From: Chlorobiaceae bacterium
GTDB lineage: Bacteria > Bacteroidota > Chlorobiia > Chlorobiales > Chlorobiaceae
Assembly: GCA_013334335.1 (NCBI GenBank)
Contig: JAAXXR010000003.1
Span: 1-64,000 of the forward strand
Direction: 5' to 3'
DNA length: 64,000 bases
Positions 14,997 through 35,446 of this stretch are shown piece after piece. Position 1 is the first letter of the stretch; every line of letters starts with the position of its first letter. Below the pieces are notes generated by a model. The model was given only the letters and a program-made list of their open reading frames with translations, was not told where the DNA came from and ran no database searches. Position numbers and translations under genes: made by a program.

Positions 14997-15085
14997 AGCG
15001 ATGTTTTTTTTACATTGGGAAGTCAAGTCCCGTAACTATCTAAAAATAGAGGAAAGATCGTCCCCACGCAACTCGCCGGCCGCCC

Positions 15086-22371: not shown

Positions 22372-24945
22372 TCATGGTGAGGAAGCGGTGTCCGAAACTG
22401 ATTTTGACACCGTCAGCGAAGAGAGCTCCTCGCTCGTCAACCTGCACACGCAACGCAGGTAGTCAGTCCAGCCATCACTCAACGGACACCCGCCCTGGTG
22501 GAAAAACTCGCTGATCCTGACACTCACGGCCAGGATTCTGGCCGCTCCGATGTTGGCGGCAGAGCCCTTGAGCGTATGATTTGCGCGTATGGCGCGCTCC
22601 TGGTCATGCTTCATGCATGCGTCATCCAGATCGTCGATGATCTTGCCGGTATCCTCGATGAACAGCCTGAACAGGTTTCCCATGAATTCGTCATCCCCGA
22701 GTTCCCGGAGACTCTCAATGGTTGAACGGTCCAGAATCTCGACGCCGTCGAACTCCTTCCATGGAGCAGGGGCCGTCAGGTCGCAATTACATTCATGCTG
22801 ACACTTCGCCTTGCTGTTGTACATGAGGTCCGATATGGCTTTGACCAGTTCCTGCTTACGGACCGGCTTGCCCAGATGCATGTTGATCTCCGTATCCATG
22901 GCGACGGAGATCGCCTCACGGTCAGAGTACCCGCTGAGCATGATAATGGGAACCTGGCAGTAATGCTCGAGACATTTTCCCGGGCCACCCGCCCTGATGA
23001 TCTTGGTGGCTTCGATACCGTCCATGACCGGCATCTGCATATCCATGATGACGAGATCGACTGGAACGGATTCAAGCTTGTCCAGAGCCCGTCTGCCATT
23101 CTCTGCCAAAAACACCGTGAAACCAAGAGGTTCAAGCATGGCCTTCAGAAACTCCCTGCTCACCATGTTGTCTTCAACGACAAGGATGTTCCCCTCCAGC
23201 TTTACCTCCGGTTGGAAGTTTGCGACGAAGCGGCGCTCCGAAAAGAAGTACTTCTCGACCATGATGCGTATATCCTGCCTCCTGACCGGTTTGAACAGGC
23301 ATTCATCCATTCCCGAAGCGGATGAGCGGGCAAGCCCCTCCTCTTCGGACAGCGCAGTCACGCCGACGATCGGTACGGTAAGGTAGTGCTGCACCAGGAA
23401 CCGTTCAATACCGATACCGTGTCGAATGCGCCGGACAGCTTCGTCCCCGTTGAGCTCAGGCATCTCGATATCCATCAGGATCAGGTCATAGCGGTTATTC
23501 CTGGCCATTTGCAGTGCAATCAGACCGTTCTCTGCCTGATCGCAGATGCATTTCATCTCACCAAAGTATTTCGAGAGCAATATCCTGTTCGGCATCTGGT
23601 CATCGACAATGAGCACCTTTTTGCGACCAAGGATCTCCTGCTTGAGGAGTTCAACCGGCTTCGAGTCGTATGCAGGCAGCTCAATGACAAACTCCGTCCA
23701 TTCTCCCGGTACGGAGCAGCAGGTGATTCTCCCTAAAAAAGAGGCCACGATCCGCCGGCAGAAGGCGAGCCCGATCCCGGTACCCCCTGGTTTACCGTAG
23801 GTGTTGAATGGCTGGAAAACCTTCTCGAGCCTGTCGGCAGGAATTCCCGGACCAGTATCCCTGATGATGATTCGATTGCAGGCTTCAGCGACCTGCATGG
23901 TGATGTCAACCCGGAACCCGTCGATACATCCGTAATACAGCGCGTTTTTAAGCAGGTTCGCCATCAGGTTTGAAAACAGGTCCTGGTCCCCAAAGAAATC
24001 GAAATCACCTGAATAGTCGACATGAACGAATGACGCCTCTTCTTCTCCGCTGAACACATACCCTTCGAGTGCGTTGCGGATCGATGTCGACACCGTCAGG
24101 CGCCTGAACTGGCTCTGATCGATCATCCTTCCGTTGAGACTCAGGAGAATGGAGTCGATGATCTTGTTTGCCCGATGGATGGTTTCCGAGCCAACATCGA
24201 TATTGTGGTGAATGCTTGCCAGCGAGACGTTCGAGATGGCGGTATCTTCAGGGCCGTCGGACAGTTCGACAGGCTTCAGGGGAAGTAACCCCCTGACCGA
24301 TTCGATGCTCAGTGCCACGGAATTGAGCGCATTTCTCATCTCGTGGGCAATCGTCCCGCTCAGGCTTTTCATGATCGTGAACCGCAACTCCTGGTAGGAG
24401 TGCATCCATCGCACCGCAACCATTACCCCGTAGAGCGTGAACACGGACGACAACAGATAGGTCCAGTCGAAATCGGTATACCTGACTTCACCATCAAGCA
24501 GCATGACGGTCAACAAAGCCGCAACGAAGGAAACCGACATGAGTACGACGATGAACAACCAGTCGAGGGTTACCAGGATGATGACGATGAGCCCCCCAAG
24601 GGCGGTCGTCGTCCACACTTCCGACCACTCGTTCTTCATGGTCATGAAAAAAATGAAAAACGGGCAGGCGACGAGGGTATAAAAAATGAAGTAATAGGGA
24701 AATGGCTTTCTGAAATCAGCGGGAATCGAGCGATAGAAGATCAACGGCAGGGCAAGTGCGGCTATCGCAACCCGAAACCCGGGGTTTTCATATCGTTGCG
24801 GTATGATCCAGATGAGAACTGCGCCCCAGATCAGACTGGACAAGGCAGCGTAGATTCCCAATGCGGATACATTCGATTCCGAGTGGTCGAACATGTCCTG
24901 CGCCCGCGTCTTGAGAGACGATGCCAATGGGAGGAAGCCGTTCAT
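22372..24945 (-). CDS. CqsS-like hybrid histidine kinase (membrane sensor-HisKA-HATPase-REC-REC-Hpt)
   Basis: An 857-residue membrane kinase resembling the Vibrio CAI-1 receptor CqsS and its Legionella LqsS relatives. The sensor (residues 25-185) has about six short hydrophobic helices with no large periplasmic loop and contains IPQRYENPGFR, close to the CqsS segment FPQSYENLGLR. The phosphoacceptor is His201 in GTIAHEMRNALNSVALS. The ATPase domain has NLLKNALYYG and GGTGIGLAFCRR, then WTEFVIELPAYDS, again CqsS-like. Two receivers follow (Asp in LILMDIEMPELNG and LVIMDMQMPVMDG) and a C-terminal Hpt domain with RANHTLKGSAANIG. CqsS has a single receiver and no Hpt, so this protein could carry out a whole phosphorelay. 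Start ATG 24945 is one of several options. Ligand identity is inferred only from similarity. Confidence 0.9.
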   Translation of the reverse strand: MNGFLPLASSLKTRAQDMFDHSESNVSALGIYAALSSLIWGAVLIWIIPQRYENPGFRVAIAALALPLIFYRSIPADFRKPFPYYFIFYTLVACPFFIFFMTMKNEWSEVWTTTALGGLIVIILVTLDWLFIVVLMSVSFVAALLTVMLLDGEVRYTDFDWTYLLSSVFTLYGVMVAVRWMHSYQELRFTIMKSLSGTIAHEMRNALNSVALSIESVRGLLPLKPVELSDGPEDTAISNVSLASIHHNIDVGSETIHRANKIIDSILLSLNGRMIDQSQFRRLTVSTSIRNALEGYVFSGEEEASFVHVDYSGDFDFFGDQDLFSNLMANLLKNALYYGCIDGFRVDITMQVAEACNRIIIRDTGPGIPADRLEKVFQPFNTYGKPGGTGIGLAFCRRIVASFLGRITCCSVPGEWTEFVIELPAYDSKPVELLKQEILGRKKVLIVDDQMPNRILLSKYFGEMKCICDQAENGLIALQMARNNRYDLILMDIEMPELNGDEAVRRIRHGIGIERFLVQHYLTVPIVGVTALSEEEGLARSSASGMDECLFKPVRRQDIRIMVEKYFFSERRFVANFQPEVKLEGNILVVEDNMVSREFLKAMLEPLGFTVFLAENGRRALDKLESVPVDLVIMDMQMPVMDGIEATKIIRAGGPGKCLEHYCQVPIIMLSGYSDREAISVAMDTEINMHLGKPVRKQELVKAISDLMYNSKAKCQHECNCDLTAPAPWKEFDGVEILDRSTIESLRELGDDEFMGNLFRLFIEDTGKIIDDLDDACMKHDQERAIRANHTLKGSAANIGAARILAVSVRISEFFHQGGCPLSDGWTDYLRCVCRLTSEELSSLTVSKSVSDTASSP

Positions 24946-30957: not shown

Positions 30958-31226
30958 TGACGGCTCTTCCCCCGATGGCAATCTTCCGGTATCTCCGCAT
31001 CATCAGCCAACAGGCAAGGATGATTTCGTGACAAGCATATCATAACCTATAAATCTCACCAGCGCACACAGTTTCTTGCCGATTGAGGGCTTACTGTTGC
31101 GATTTTTGTTACGAAAAGTGTAGTTTTTCTCCTTCTGTAGTTCAGCTGACCGGTGGTTATCCCCCCGTTGAACAGCTGAAAAGGTGCGACTTGTTACCTG
31201 AAGGAACATTATATCACGACGTCCTG

Positions 31227-34200
31227 ATGCCGAAGCAACTGAAAAACATTAGCTCCGACGCGCTCAACATGGCCAGCCGGGAGGTGTGCTCGCTCCTGGA
31301 ATCCCTTCCCGATGCCGCGTTCATCATGAATCCGGATGGCCGGGTCCTCAACGCCAACAACCTGTTCGCGGAGAAGTTCGGCATGCGAAGTTCGGAATTT
31401 ATCGGCGCCGACATCTACGATCTTTTCGTCAACATATTGCGAATACCCCAGCTGGTACAGTATCTCAGAGAAAAATCACAACAGGTGCTGCAGAGTGGAA
31501 AACGACTGATTTTTGAAGATGACACCGAGATCTGGAAAGTCACCATCAGTCCGGTACGGGCATCAGGTGAAAAGATCGAGAGCCTGTACATCGGGATCCA
31601 GAACATCGCCGAACAGAAGCGAACGGACAAAACCCTGAAAAAAGAGCGCGAGCTCAAATCGACCTTGCTCGATTCGATCACCTGTTCCGCTATAATTCTC
31701 GATGCGAGCCTTAAACTGATCGCCTGGAACCGCTACGCCCATGACCTCATTTTCAGCACGTCATGTGCGGAAAAACCGGTCGTCGACCCGGTCGACTTCT
31801 TCAGTCCCGAAGACATGGCATCGCTCAGGAAAAAATTCCTGAATACGCTGGAGACCGGCATTGACGACCTGAGTGAAGTTGAGGTCCGTCCTCGCGGAGC
31901 AGCAGGATCCCAATGGCTTTTTACCCGTTCAAAGCGGATATACATCGATGGCGAACCCTGCCTGGTCTCGATCGGGATCGACATCACCGAACGCAAGTTG
32001 CTTGAGCAGGAGCTCATCGAGAGCAAGGTCAGGTACAGTTACGCCCTGGATGCATCCCACGCAGGAATCTGGGAGTGGGACCTCGCCACGGATGACCTGA
32101 GCTGGTCGGAACAGGTTTGGAAATTGTACGGGCTGGACGTAAAGAGCAGGCCCTTGAACCACCAGCTCTGCGTCGACACCATCCATCCTGAAGACCGCGA
32201 AATGGCCTCAAGGATCATCAAAAAGGCGGTCAGCGCTCAAAATGCGGCATCGGTCGAATATCGTACCTGCCACCCCGACGGCTCCATTCATTGGCTGACC
32301 TCCCGTGGCATGCCGATTCTTGACGACTCGGGAAACGTGACCCGGTACATCGGCGCCATCATCGACATCACCGAACGCAAGCTGATCGAACTCGAGCTGA
32401 TCGAAAACAGGAAACGGCTTAACCAGGCGCTTGAGGCCGCGCGCGCCGGTGTCTGGGAGTGGGACCTTCTGAGCGATGAAAATATCTGGTCTGACGAAAT
32501 ATGGCCATTGTATGGCCTGAAGCCAGGGGACGCCCACCATCCAAACTTCAGGTTCTGGGCAGACTCCATTCATCCCGACGACCGTGAACTGGCCATACGG
32601 GAGGTCACTGAAGCCGCGAAAAACCATACGGAACTGAACGTCGAATATCGCGTCGGTTACCCGGACGGATCTGTCCACTGGCTCATGTCCCGCGGCAAAC
32701 CCGTTCAGGACGAGCACGGCTCTACGATTCGATATCTCGGCACAATCATCGATATCACCGAACGCAAGAAGGCAGAAGAAGCCCTGCAGGAAAGCAAGGT
32801 ACGGTTCAACTTTGCACTGAAAGCCACGGGAGCGGGCATCTGGCAATGGGATGTCAGGGAGGACAAGGTGACCTGGTCAGAACAGATATGGGCACTGTAC
32901 GGCCTGGAACCGAACAGCATCGTGCCCTCCCACCGGCTTTGCGAAAGCAACGTTCATCGCGACGACCGGGAGTTGACCTTTGAACAGGTCATGTCAGCGG
33001 CAAACAGGAACATCGAGTTCACCGTCGAATATCGGGTCTGCCATCCGGATGGTTCCGAGCATTGGCTTATGTGCCGAGGGGTACCCATGCCTGGAGCTGA
33101 CGGCAAGACGACCTGTTATCTCGGCATGGTCATGGATATCACCGAACGGAGACAGGCAGAAGAAGAGCGGAGAAGAAGCCAGGAAAAACTCAACTTCGTC
33201 CTCCAGAAAAGTCGTCTGGGTGTGTGGGATCTGAACCTGAACGATTTCACCGCGCTCCGTTCGCTTGAGTACGCCCACATTTTCGGATATGACCACATCA
33301 CTTCCGAATGGTCTCTGGAACACTTTTTCTGCCACGTCGTGCCCAGGGATCGCGAACGGATTGAACGGCTGATCAGGGATGCCATCGACAAGCAGGAGAG
33401 TTTTACCTTCGAATGCCAGATCATTACCGTCAGCGGCAATCTCCGCTGGATATGGCTCTTTGGCGCCTTCGACACCAGCCGGAGCGGAAAGGCAAAATAT
33501 CTGTCTGGGGTCGTGCAGGATATTACCGAACGCAAACAGACGGAGTTGCTGCTGAAGGACAGCGAACAGAAGTTCAGGAACATCTTCGAGTTCTCCCCAA
33601 TCGCCATCGGCATCGAAGACATGGAGAATGAACAGCTCTTCGACGTCAACGCCTCATGGCTGAGGCTTTTCGGCTTTTCAAGGGAAGAGGTGATCGGCAA
33701 GCGCTGTACCGATTTGGGGCTCTATCAGTATCCGGAAGACCATGAGCAGATCAAACAAGACCTCCGGAAGCACGGCAGAGTCTTCAACCGACCGTTCAAA
33801 CTGAAAAAAAAATCGGGCGATCGCGTCGACAGCCTCTATTCCGCAGAGTATGTCACAATGAACGCCCAGACCAGCCTCCTGGTGATGATCACCGATATGA
33901 CCATACAGCAGTTGCAGCAGGCAAGCATCTCAATACTGGAAAAAGCCGTTGCCGATCGCACCGCCCAGCTTGAGCTCGAAGTTGAACACCTGCATCGCTT
34001 CCTGAGCATGATCTCCCATGAATACCGCACCCCCCTGGCGATCATCCGTGGAAATCTCGACCTTATCGACCTCAAGCATAAAAGCGGTGATTATTCGAAC
34101 AACCGCGAAATGGGTAAAATTAAACGGGCGATCGACCGCCTGGTCGAAGTCATGGAGGTGTCGATACAGGAAAGCCGCATTCTCGAATCGCAGAAAACCC

Positions 34201-34652
34201 TCTCTTCGACCAACTTCGAAATCGAACCGTTAGTTATTTCACAGCTGGATGCATTCCGTTCCATGTGGCCGGAACGGGAGTTCCGATACTCGGGAAGCCT
34301 TGGTGAATCAAGGATTGCTGGCGAATCGTCGCTGCTCAAGATGGCCATTTTCAACCTTTTGGATAATGCCCTCAAGTACTCCCTGCCGGACACACCGATT
34401 GACATGAGTTGCCGCGTCGAAGAGCACGAGGCCGTGATCGCCATACGAAACCAGGGCAAAAGCATCATCGCAGACGAAGGGGAGGCGTTCTTCGAAAAAT
34501 ACCGGCGAGGCAGCAACGCGGCCAACACCGGCGGCGCAGGCATCGGCCTGTGGCTGGTCAAGAGCATCATCGACCAGCATCATGGACAGGTCCACCTGAC
34601 AGGTACGGAAACAGGAGTCGAGGCGGCCGTGAGACTGCCACTGGCGGAGTGA
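31227..34652 (+). CDS. Multi-PAS sensor histidine kinase (seven PAS domains)
   Basis: An 1141-residue soluble histidine kinase. Two N-terminal PAS domains (about 15-125 and 140-260) resemble those of the 18932-20881 kinase. They are followed by four consecutive PAS_3-type modules, each with a signature such as ALDASHAGIWEWDL and ending in IDITERK, and a seventh PAS (KFRNIFEFSPIAIGIEDMEN). The HisKA phosphoacceptor is in FLSMISHEYRTPLAI, and the ATPase domain has NLLDNALKYSLP and GGAGIGLWLVKSIIDQH. There is no receiver. ATG 31227 is used because the frame to 31083 begins with TTG and lacks domain character. The cognate regulator starts 65 nt downstream. Ligands of the PAS array cannot be deduced. 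Confidence 0.93.
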   Translation: MPKQLKNISSDALNMASREVCSLLESLPDAAFIMNPDGRVLNANNLFAEKFGMRSSEFIGADIYDLFVNILRIPQLVQYLREKSQQVLQSGKRLIFEDDTEIWKVTISPVRASGEKIESLYIGIQNIAEQKRTDKTLKKERELKSTLLDSITCSAIILDASLKLIAWNRYAHDLIFSTSCAEKPVVDPVDFFSPEDMASLRKKFLNTLETGIDDLSEVEVRPRGAAGSQWLFTRSKRIYIDGEPCLVSIGIDITERKLLEQELIESKVRYSYALDASHAGIWEWDLATDDLSWSEQVWKLYGLDVKSRPLNHQLCVDTIHPEDREMASRIIKKAVSAQNAASVEYRTCHPDGSIHWLTSRGMPILDDSGNVTRYIGAIIDITERKLIELELIENRKRLNQALEAARAGVWEWDLLSDENIWSDEIWPLYGLKPGDAHHPNFRFWADSIHPDDRELAIREVTEAAKNHTELNVEYRVGYPDGSVHWLMSRGKPVQDEHGSTIRYLGTIIDITERKKAEEALQESKVRFNFALKATGAGIWQWDVREDKVTWSEQIWALYGLEPNSIVPSHRLCESNVHRDDRELTFEQVMSAANRNIEFTVEYRVCHPDGSEHWLMCRGVPMPGADGKTTCYLGMVMDITERRQAEEERRRSQEKLNFVLQKSRLGVWDLNLNDFTALRSLEYAHIFGYDHITSEWSLEHFFCHVVPRDRERIERLIRDAIDKQESFTFECQIITVSGNLRWIWLFGAFDTSRSGKAKYLSGVVQDITERKQTELLLKDSEQKFRNIFEFSPIAIGIEDMENEQLFDVNASWLRLFGFSREEVIGKRCTDLGLYQYPEDHEQIKQDLRKHGRVFNRPFKLKKKSGDRVDSLYSAEYVTMNAQTSLLVMITDMTIQQLQQASISILEKAVADRTAQLELEVEHLHRFLSMISHEYRTPLAIIRGNLDLIDLKHKSGDYSNNREMGKIKRAIDRLVEVMEVSIQESRILESQKTLSSTNFEIEPLVISQLDAFRSMWPEREFRYSGSLGESRIAGESSLLKMAIFNLLDNALKYSLPDTPIDMSCRVEEHEAVIAIRNQGKSIIADEGEAFFEKYRRGSNAANTGGAGIGLWLVKSIIDQHHGQVHLTGTETGVEAAVRLPLAE

Positions 34653-34717: not shown

Positions 34718-35446
34718 ATGACCGAACACAAACAGATCATCGTCGTCGAAGACGATCGTGACTTCCGCGAAAGCATGGTCGAATACCTTCTCCTGGCTGG
34801 ATATGACGTCACCGGTGTCGGGTCCGCCCTTGAGTTCTATCAGGCTATCGCCCGTGACCGCTTTCTTCTGGCCATCCTGGACATTGGCCTGCCGGACCAG
34901 GACGGATTCGTGCTTGCCGAGTACATTCGAAAAAATTCCGAAATGCGCATCGTCATGCTCACTGCGCAATCCTCTCTCGACAGCAAAATCAACGCCTACC
35001 GGTCAGGCGCCGATACCTACCTCGTCAAACCGATAGATTTCGCAGAACTTGCCGCCTCGCTCGACAGCATGATCGGACGCCTCAATTCCAAGAGTGCTGA
35101 TGACGAGCAACCGACACCCATTGCACCCCTCCACGGCGGAAAAACGGAACACTGGCGGCTTATGCGCAGCGAACACTCACTATTCGCACCGAACGGCAAC
35201 ATGACGGCGCTCACCTCCAAAGAGTTCGATCTTCTGGAACAGCTCGCCGCATCCCCGAAAACGGTCGTCGAACGCAGAACCCTTCTGCAAACCCTCGTGT
35301 ATGACGACGACGACCTCGGCAATCGCGCCCTCGATGCGCTCATCCACCGCCTTCGTCGAAAAAAAGAGGATCTCGGCCTGATGATCCCTGTAAAAACCGT
35401 CCACGGCTCCGGATACAGTTTTTCCGAACTGATCGTCATCGAGTAG
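34718..35446 (+). CDS. OmpR/PhoB-family response regulator
   Basis: A 242-residue two-domain regulator. The receiver (residues 5-120) has the acidic pair VVEDD, phosphoacceptor Asp in LLAILDIGLPDQDGF, Thr in VMLTAQSS and Lys in TYLVKPIDFAE. The C-terminal winged-helix DNA-binding domain (about 145-240) shows ALTSKEFDLLEQLAASPKTV and ends with VKTVHGSGYSF. It is directly downstream of the seven-PAS kinase and is presumably its partner; its target promoters are unknown. The 207 nt that follow contain a palindrome in front of ndh that could be one. Confidence 0.95.
   Translation: MTEHKQIIVVEDDRDFRESMVEYLLLAGYDVTGVGSALEFYQAIARDRFLLAILDIGLPDQDGFVLAEYIRKNSEMRIVMLTAQSSLDSKINAYRSGADTYLVKPIDFAELAASLDSMIGRLNSKSADDEQPTPIAPLHGGKTEHWRLMRSEHSLFAPNGNMTALTSKEFDLLEQLAASPKTVVERRTLLQTLVYDDDDLGNRALDALIHRLRRKKEDLGLMIPVKTVHGSGYSFSELIVIE

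Follow-up and report, generated by a model that had tools for sequence, protein, structure and literature searches.

The hybrid histidine kinase described here is encoded in a stretch of 64,000 nucleotides (the window) from a green sulfur bacterium. Homology identifies it as an orphan paralog of the quorum receptor CqsS. We do not name it CqsS because it lacks two features of that receptor, a synthase partner and the invariant Ser107. It may still work in a CqsS-like manner. Our preferred reading, to which we give a probability a little under one half, is an orphan CqsS-family receptor kinase that responds to a putative alpha-hydroxyketone-like signal from other cells and relays it to a separate regulator. 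The family is already known in green sulfur bacteria; what is new is the synthase-free paralog clade that holds the window protein. As a family member the protein is ordinary, and its mild interest comes from this synthase-free expansion.

The genome containing the window is 2.18 Mb long, in 130 contigs, and 99.6% complete. The window also encodes a bacteriochlorophyll c synthase, above its curated cut-off, which marks the DNA as that of a green sulfur bacterium. The kinase gene lies on the minus strand and is read from 24945 down to 22372 (Table 1).

Table 1. Features of the kinase gene, and one separate junction in the window
Feature	Position	Strand	Evidence
Whole gene, CqsS-family orphan hybrid histidine kinase, 857 aa	22372..24945	-	Reading frame without internal stop; Pfam; orphan clade in tree
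Six-transmembrane sensor, residues ~20-190 (homologous to CqsS ~5-182)	24376..24888	-	Proteobacterial CqsS membrane-only profile, E 8e-25; AlphaFold helices
Residues W111 to T114, equivalent to V. cholerae CqsS W104 to S107 (head-group determinants); Ser replaced by Thr	24604..24615	-	Alignment with V. mimicus CqsS; role from PMC3376566
TM6 residues S167, F169, G173 and A177, equivalent to V. cholerae F160, F162, F166 and C170; F162 alone kept	24415..24447	-	Alignment; role from PMC3376566
DHp region, phospho-acceptor H201 (CqsS H194)	24136..24375	-	Pfam and alignment
HATPase_c, residues 319-425	23671..23991	-	Pfam, E 1.8e-20
Receiver 1, residues ~443-560, D492, intact	23266..23619	-	Pfam and alignment; same place in Vibrio CqsS resembles a degenerate receiver
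Receiver 2, residues 586-705, D635 (CqsS D618)	22831..23190	-	Pfam and alignment
Hpt domain, residues 758-815, H790	22501..22674	-	Pfam, E 7e-8
Uninterrupted dCMP deaminase/NFACT junction, not part of the kinase	15027..15085	.	Genome G010 holds cqsS-cqsA there; cassette absent at this site

Homology of the sensor to CqsS

An earlier sequence-only reading likened both the sensor half and the kinase core to CqsS. The membrane-only profile, the alignment, the H-box and the relay residues all bear this out. The peptides it quoted are present in the window protein and match real CqsS sequences, FPQTYENLGLR in Vibrio mimicus and EWTEFTLTFP in another vibrio. We took reference CqsS genes from beside genuine CqsA, in Vibrio campbellii (L011), two further vibrios and a Cupriavidus LqsA-LqsS pair.

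For a non-circular comparison, a profile was built from the membrane part alone, using 47 proteobacterial CqsS segments that stop ahead of the H-box and include nothing of the kinase. The window protein scores 85.4 bits on this profile (E 8e-25). Among 2,000 shuffles that preserved composition or pattern (half keep the hydrophobic pattern), the highest score was 16.2 bits. This wide gap on a profile confined to the membrane part marks the window sensor, at the level of sequence, as a homologue of the CqsS sensor. When the orphan clade and proteobacterial CqsS were compared profile to profile, 178 of 178 columns aligned at E 1.2e-40, a somewhat favourable value because both sub-alignments came from one joint alignment. 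All six membrane segments align to CqsS with small gaps only, so the similarity around YENPGFR is not isolated, and the profile search did not place the sensor in a different membrane family.

An AlphaFold model of the sensor alone has six membrane helices (7-47, 55-79, which is broken, 82-104, 109-126, 129-151 and 161-189) with a mean pLDDT of 92.5; the last helix continues into the DHp helix. A search of solved structures with this model gave no significant match (best E 0.68), and the matches listed for a larger model are kinase proteins. Similarity to the NCBIfam LuxN model (234 bits, cut-off 1550) was discounted, its best stretch being 192-425, the kinase region and not the sensor. PhcS was set aside as a further example of a membrane lipid sensor; the PhcS paper does not discuss CqsS homology.

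In the catalytic half, Pfam finds two Response_reg stretches, of which 586-704 is the better. HisKA is below threshold (196-233, 14.9 bits, cut-off 26.9) despite an intact H-box, IAHEMRN.

CqsA and the synthase-free clade

Contrary to the sequence-only reading, CqsS/CqsA is not unexpected in green sulfur bacteria: it is already published, and 30 of the 98 Chlorobia genomes searched here contain CqsA. Homologs of cqsA and cqsS have been noted in Chlorobiaceae (PMC5289986, citing Tiaden 2010; PMC10692735), and a cluster of CqsS-like sensors takes in Chlorobia (PMC4821796). In a 2023 study of Prosthecochloris, cqsA and cqsS are described as neighbours in green sulfur bacteria, and one strain as having lost cqsA (PMC10158934). 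Our search with Vibrio CqsA gave 34 matches in the 30 genomes at 45-53% identity, clearly apart from the next group (BioF and relatives, about 30%). On the curated CqsA model NF005526 (cut-off 428 bits; positive controls 580-697 bits) the Chlorobia proteins score 595-624 bits. Every one of the 30 genomes also has a CqsS-like kinase, and the two genes are usually side by side wherever their surroundings are present; Chlorobium ferrooxidans DSM 13031 (L137) is a cultured example.

We also observed cqsA beside cqsS in three metagenome bins titled Rickettsiales, uncultured Alphaproteobacteria and 'Rickettsia typhi' (L156, L165, L172), which may be misnamed. Dyella and Rhodanobacter plasmids (L016:4953-6197, L017:4890-6257) carry CqsS-type kinases in a further orphan setting: their neighbours are a DEAD/DEAH helicase and a WGR-domain gene, and there is no synthase close by.

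The window had been said to contain no CqsA/LqsA-type synthase, and this is true of the whole genome as well. The curated model, Vibrio CqsA and Chlorobia CqsA found no CqsA there, an absence that falls short of absolute because the genome is in 130 contigs. Each of the three queries hits the same pair of enzymes and no others, with protein-search scores of about 110 bits, and the two best NF005526 scores are 182 and 174 bits, against the cut-off of 428. These candidates were rejected: they score far higher as serine palmitoyltransferase and BioF, and the BioF-like one lies among biotin genes.

One genome of the same genus, G010, does have the pair. There cqsS-cqsA interrupts the dCMP deaminase/NFACT junction (L037, G010:C37:49000-58000), which is intact in the window and in the 19 other genomes of the genus. 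Insertion in G010 is therefore simpler than loss of cqsA from the window's locus, and the pair was probably inserted in G010. In other CqsA-bearing Chlorobia it is found near trpB (L038), beside a metH-like gene (L059) or beside prs/lpxD (L097). Judged by these different loci, cqsS-cqsA seems to behave as a mobile cassette.

The window genome contains three full CqsS-like kinases: the window protein, L018 (45% identity) and L019 (38%). In a tree of 95 kinases L019 groups with CqsA-paired L037, which identifies it as the canonical copy, and the L019 and L037 sensors are 77% identical. The window protein and L018 belong to a clade of 10 sequences with support of 100/100, none of them beside cqsA. 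Two more unpaired kinases, L074 and L078, join this clade less firmly in a quick tree. The resulting 12 orphan-type sequences occur in five genomes of one genus (the window genome, G009, G010, G016 and G018), with three tandem copies each in G010 (L073) and G018 (L064). The clade has long branches. What looked like a fourth independent CqsS in the window genome (pieces L114 and L020, on contigs C75 and C20) reads as one distant kinase of a 700-aa type split by contig ends. Position 107 is Trp in its sensor half, within the stretch LWLYWEIF.

Since the same genome has a canonical CqsS, the window kinase might mainly modulate L019, through heterodimers or by competing for the same regulator, instead of being a receptor in its own right. 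The membrane anchors of CqsS and LqsS are able to heterodimerise (PMC4821796). However, the window and L019 sensors are only 32% identical, the window protein has complete relay residues and the pairing is putative; we consider this explanation improbable.

The closest relative of the window protein is L050 of G018 (69% identity over the whole protein). Between the window gene and its G018 ortholog, dN is 0.17-0.22 and dS about 1.1 in every module. Values of dN so far below dS argue that sensor and relay are both maintained, under purifying selection by this codon-level measure. They also speak, along with the intact 857-aa frame and a full set of relay residues, against a decaying and functionless duplicate. 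The duplicating set does include damaged members. A tandem orphan of G010 (L073:3592-6114) has Asn for the phospho-acceptor His (IANEMK) and is a possible pseudokinase, and another (L073:6208-8388) has no Hpt motif. For the window gene itself we regard decay as very improbable.

Orphan receptors of this family have precedents. The green sulfur bacterium Prosthecochloris SCSIO W1101 has retained cqsS in the absence of cqsA (PMC10158934), but there one canonical cqsS lost its partner, whereas the window genome has paralogs of a separate clade beside a canonical copy. Legionella LqsS and LqsT are CqsS-family sensors, and with LqsT there is already an example of an orphan homologous kinase within one circuit (PMC5289986). 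Unlike the window protein, Legionella LqsS passes phosphate to the separate LqsR in a cell that makes LAI-1 itself; the sequence that we compared is the LqsS-like L014 of Cupriavidus.

Ligand pocket and position 107

Eight positions were checked in V. mimicus CqsS (L164), and all agree with the numbering published for V. cholerae: W104, S107, F160, F162, F166, C170, H194 and D618. Their counterparts in the window protein are W, T, S, F, G, A, H and D. In V. cholerae CqsS, W104 and S107 are reported as head-group determinants, and F160, F162, F166 and C170 as gatekeeper or tail-length residues (PMC3376566). W104 says little because it is present in every kinase of the set. Among the gatekeeper and tail-length residues F162 is kept and the other three are changed, but these vary among paired receptors too. 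Compared with Vibrio CqsS, the CAI-1 receptor, the window protein has a six-helix sensor homologous over its full length, the H-box, a D618-equivalent receiver, W104 and F162 in common. It differs in Thr for S107, in changed F160, F166 and C170, and in a genome without cqsA.

Canonical Chlorobia CqsS proteins (for example L137 of C. ferrooxidans, L037 and L059) have the same 6TM-HisKA-HATPase-REC-REC-Hpt layout as the window protein, with about 27-34% sensor identity. Nearly all of them lie beside a true CqsA, with S107 present, in contrast to the window protein in its separate synthase-free clade. Thirteen sensor positions are invariant in the CqsA-paired Chlorobia receptors. The window protein keeps ten of these (N25, G30, Y52, R58, Y85, P95, N105, W111, A143 and F169); at the other three it differs, with G for Y34, I for F91 and T for S107 (its Thr114). 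It has also lost the GYPxxYY motif of TM1. Alpha-hydroxyketone sensing is unproven for this protein, given its orphan status and its changed sensor positions.

Ser107 occurs in all 28 paired Chlorobia receptors and in 16 of 61 unpaired ones, where it is the rarest of the positions invariant in paired receptors. All 63 paired receptors from the genome_contigs loci, which overlap the Chlorobia set, have it as well. The raw counts (28:0 against 16:45) give a Fisher p of 4e-12. Phylogeny-corrected contrasts reduce this to 3-4 supporting and 0 opposing cases, with p between 0.125 and 0.5. We therefore take the link between S107 and synthase pairing, despite the strong raw counts, as a suggestive lead from sequence that falls short of a proven marker. 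In the distant 700-aa kinase group, Ser107 is present in the 4 paired members and Trp107 in 25 of 28 unpaired ones. The four genomes in which cqsA lies beside such a Ser107 kinase (L097, L099, L090, L095) are of the same genus, and the synthase has possibly recruited this type of receptor independently. Together, the paired and unpaired receptors form a natural set for the roles of position 107 and the TM1 motif in ligand recognition.

In a competing explanation, the sensor drifted off alpha-hydroxyketones to another hydrophobic ligand (another fatty-acid-derived signal, an endogenous lipid or a membrane state) with the relay unchanged. It would account for the loss of GYPxxYY, S107, Y34 and F91, for Ala, Cys or Ser at position 107 in sister orphans, for long branches and for orphans that are never beside a synthase. 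However, ten of the thirteen invariant positions are kept, and Thr retains a hydroxyl at 107. LqsS departs from CqsS at W104 and at the gatekeepers, yet is considered a LAI-1 sensor (PMC3376566), and the S107-pairing link loses significance once phylogeny is corrected. We regard drift as a real possibility that falls short of even odds.

In our preferred reading, of an orphan receptor for signals of the alpha-hydroxyketone kind, the protein would be a dimer in the inner membrane, holding a small lipid-like signal among its six helices. The ligand would most likely be an alpha-hydroxyketone, an alpha-aminoketone or a close chemical relative, made by other cells since the protein's own genome has no CqsA. 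Binding would switch the protein from kinase to phosphatase, as in CqsS (PMC3310172). If the orphan copies do sense alpha-hydroxyketones, a phototrophic anaerobe would hear signals that it cannot make and for which close relatives carry the synthase.

A serine-palmitoyltransferase-like enzyme is encoded elsewhere in the window genome (L021:4933-6291; 458 bits, below the curated cut-off of 640), and similar enzymes seem widespread in the family. The alpha-aminoketone product expected of it is a conceivable class of endogenous ligand.

Phosphorelay and candidate output regulator

A built-in phosphorelay had been proposed from sequence, and the residues of a His-Asp-His relay are all in place: H201, D492, D635 and H790 are present, as is the conserved Lys of both receivers. 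The accompanying claim, that a second receiver and an Hpt domain were added relative to Vibrio, holds in part. The fused Hpt is clearly extra, as Vibrio uses LuxU. The receiver is probably not an addition, since Vibrio CqsS seems to keep a degenerate one. At the place of the window protein's intact first receiver (REC1), the acidic pair and the Lys are gone from Vibrio CqsS, and hhalign relates this stretch to REC1 at E 1.9e-4 with a probability of only 47%. By this comparison Vibrio CqsS carries a probable receiver remnant. Nearly all canonical Chlorobia CqsS proteins have REC-REC-Hpt; those with complete genes have both receivers and the Hpt domain, with a single Asp-to-Glu exception in REC1. 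The pattern suggests an old two-receiver layout whose remnant persists in Vibrio CqsS.

Phosphate would pass from H201 to D635 and/or D492 and then to H790 of the fused Hpt, and homology favours H201 to D635 to H790 as the working route. From H790 it would pass to a separate response regulator. No regulator adjoins the window kinase gene itself. A PhoB-type regulator (receiver and Trans_reg_C) is encoded about 1-4 kb from an orphan kinase in the window genome (near L018), G009, G010 and G018, and a GATase gene adjoins the kinases in three of these four. Orthologs at 56% identity or more occur outside them only in G016 and G013, and G013 has no orphan-type kinase. All six regulator-bearing genomes look related by their closest NFACT sequences, which makes co-occurrence weak evidence by itself; physical linkage is the better evidence. 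By neighbourhood, the PhoB/OmpR-type regulator at L018:10651-11409 is the best candidate output for the window kinase.

The wider proposal is that one lineage multiplied CqsS into synthase-free receptors (up to four of the clade per genome, some in tandem) with varied pockets and a shared PhoB-type regulator, a dedicated apparatus for the alpha-hydroxyketone-like signals of several neighbours and not for the bacterium's own. We think this doubtful as a whole.

The window also encodes, on the plus strand, a multi-PAS histidine kinase (31083-34652) adjoining a PhoB-type regulator (34718-35446), which shares 44% identity with the one encoded near orphan kinases.
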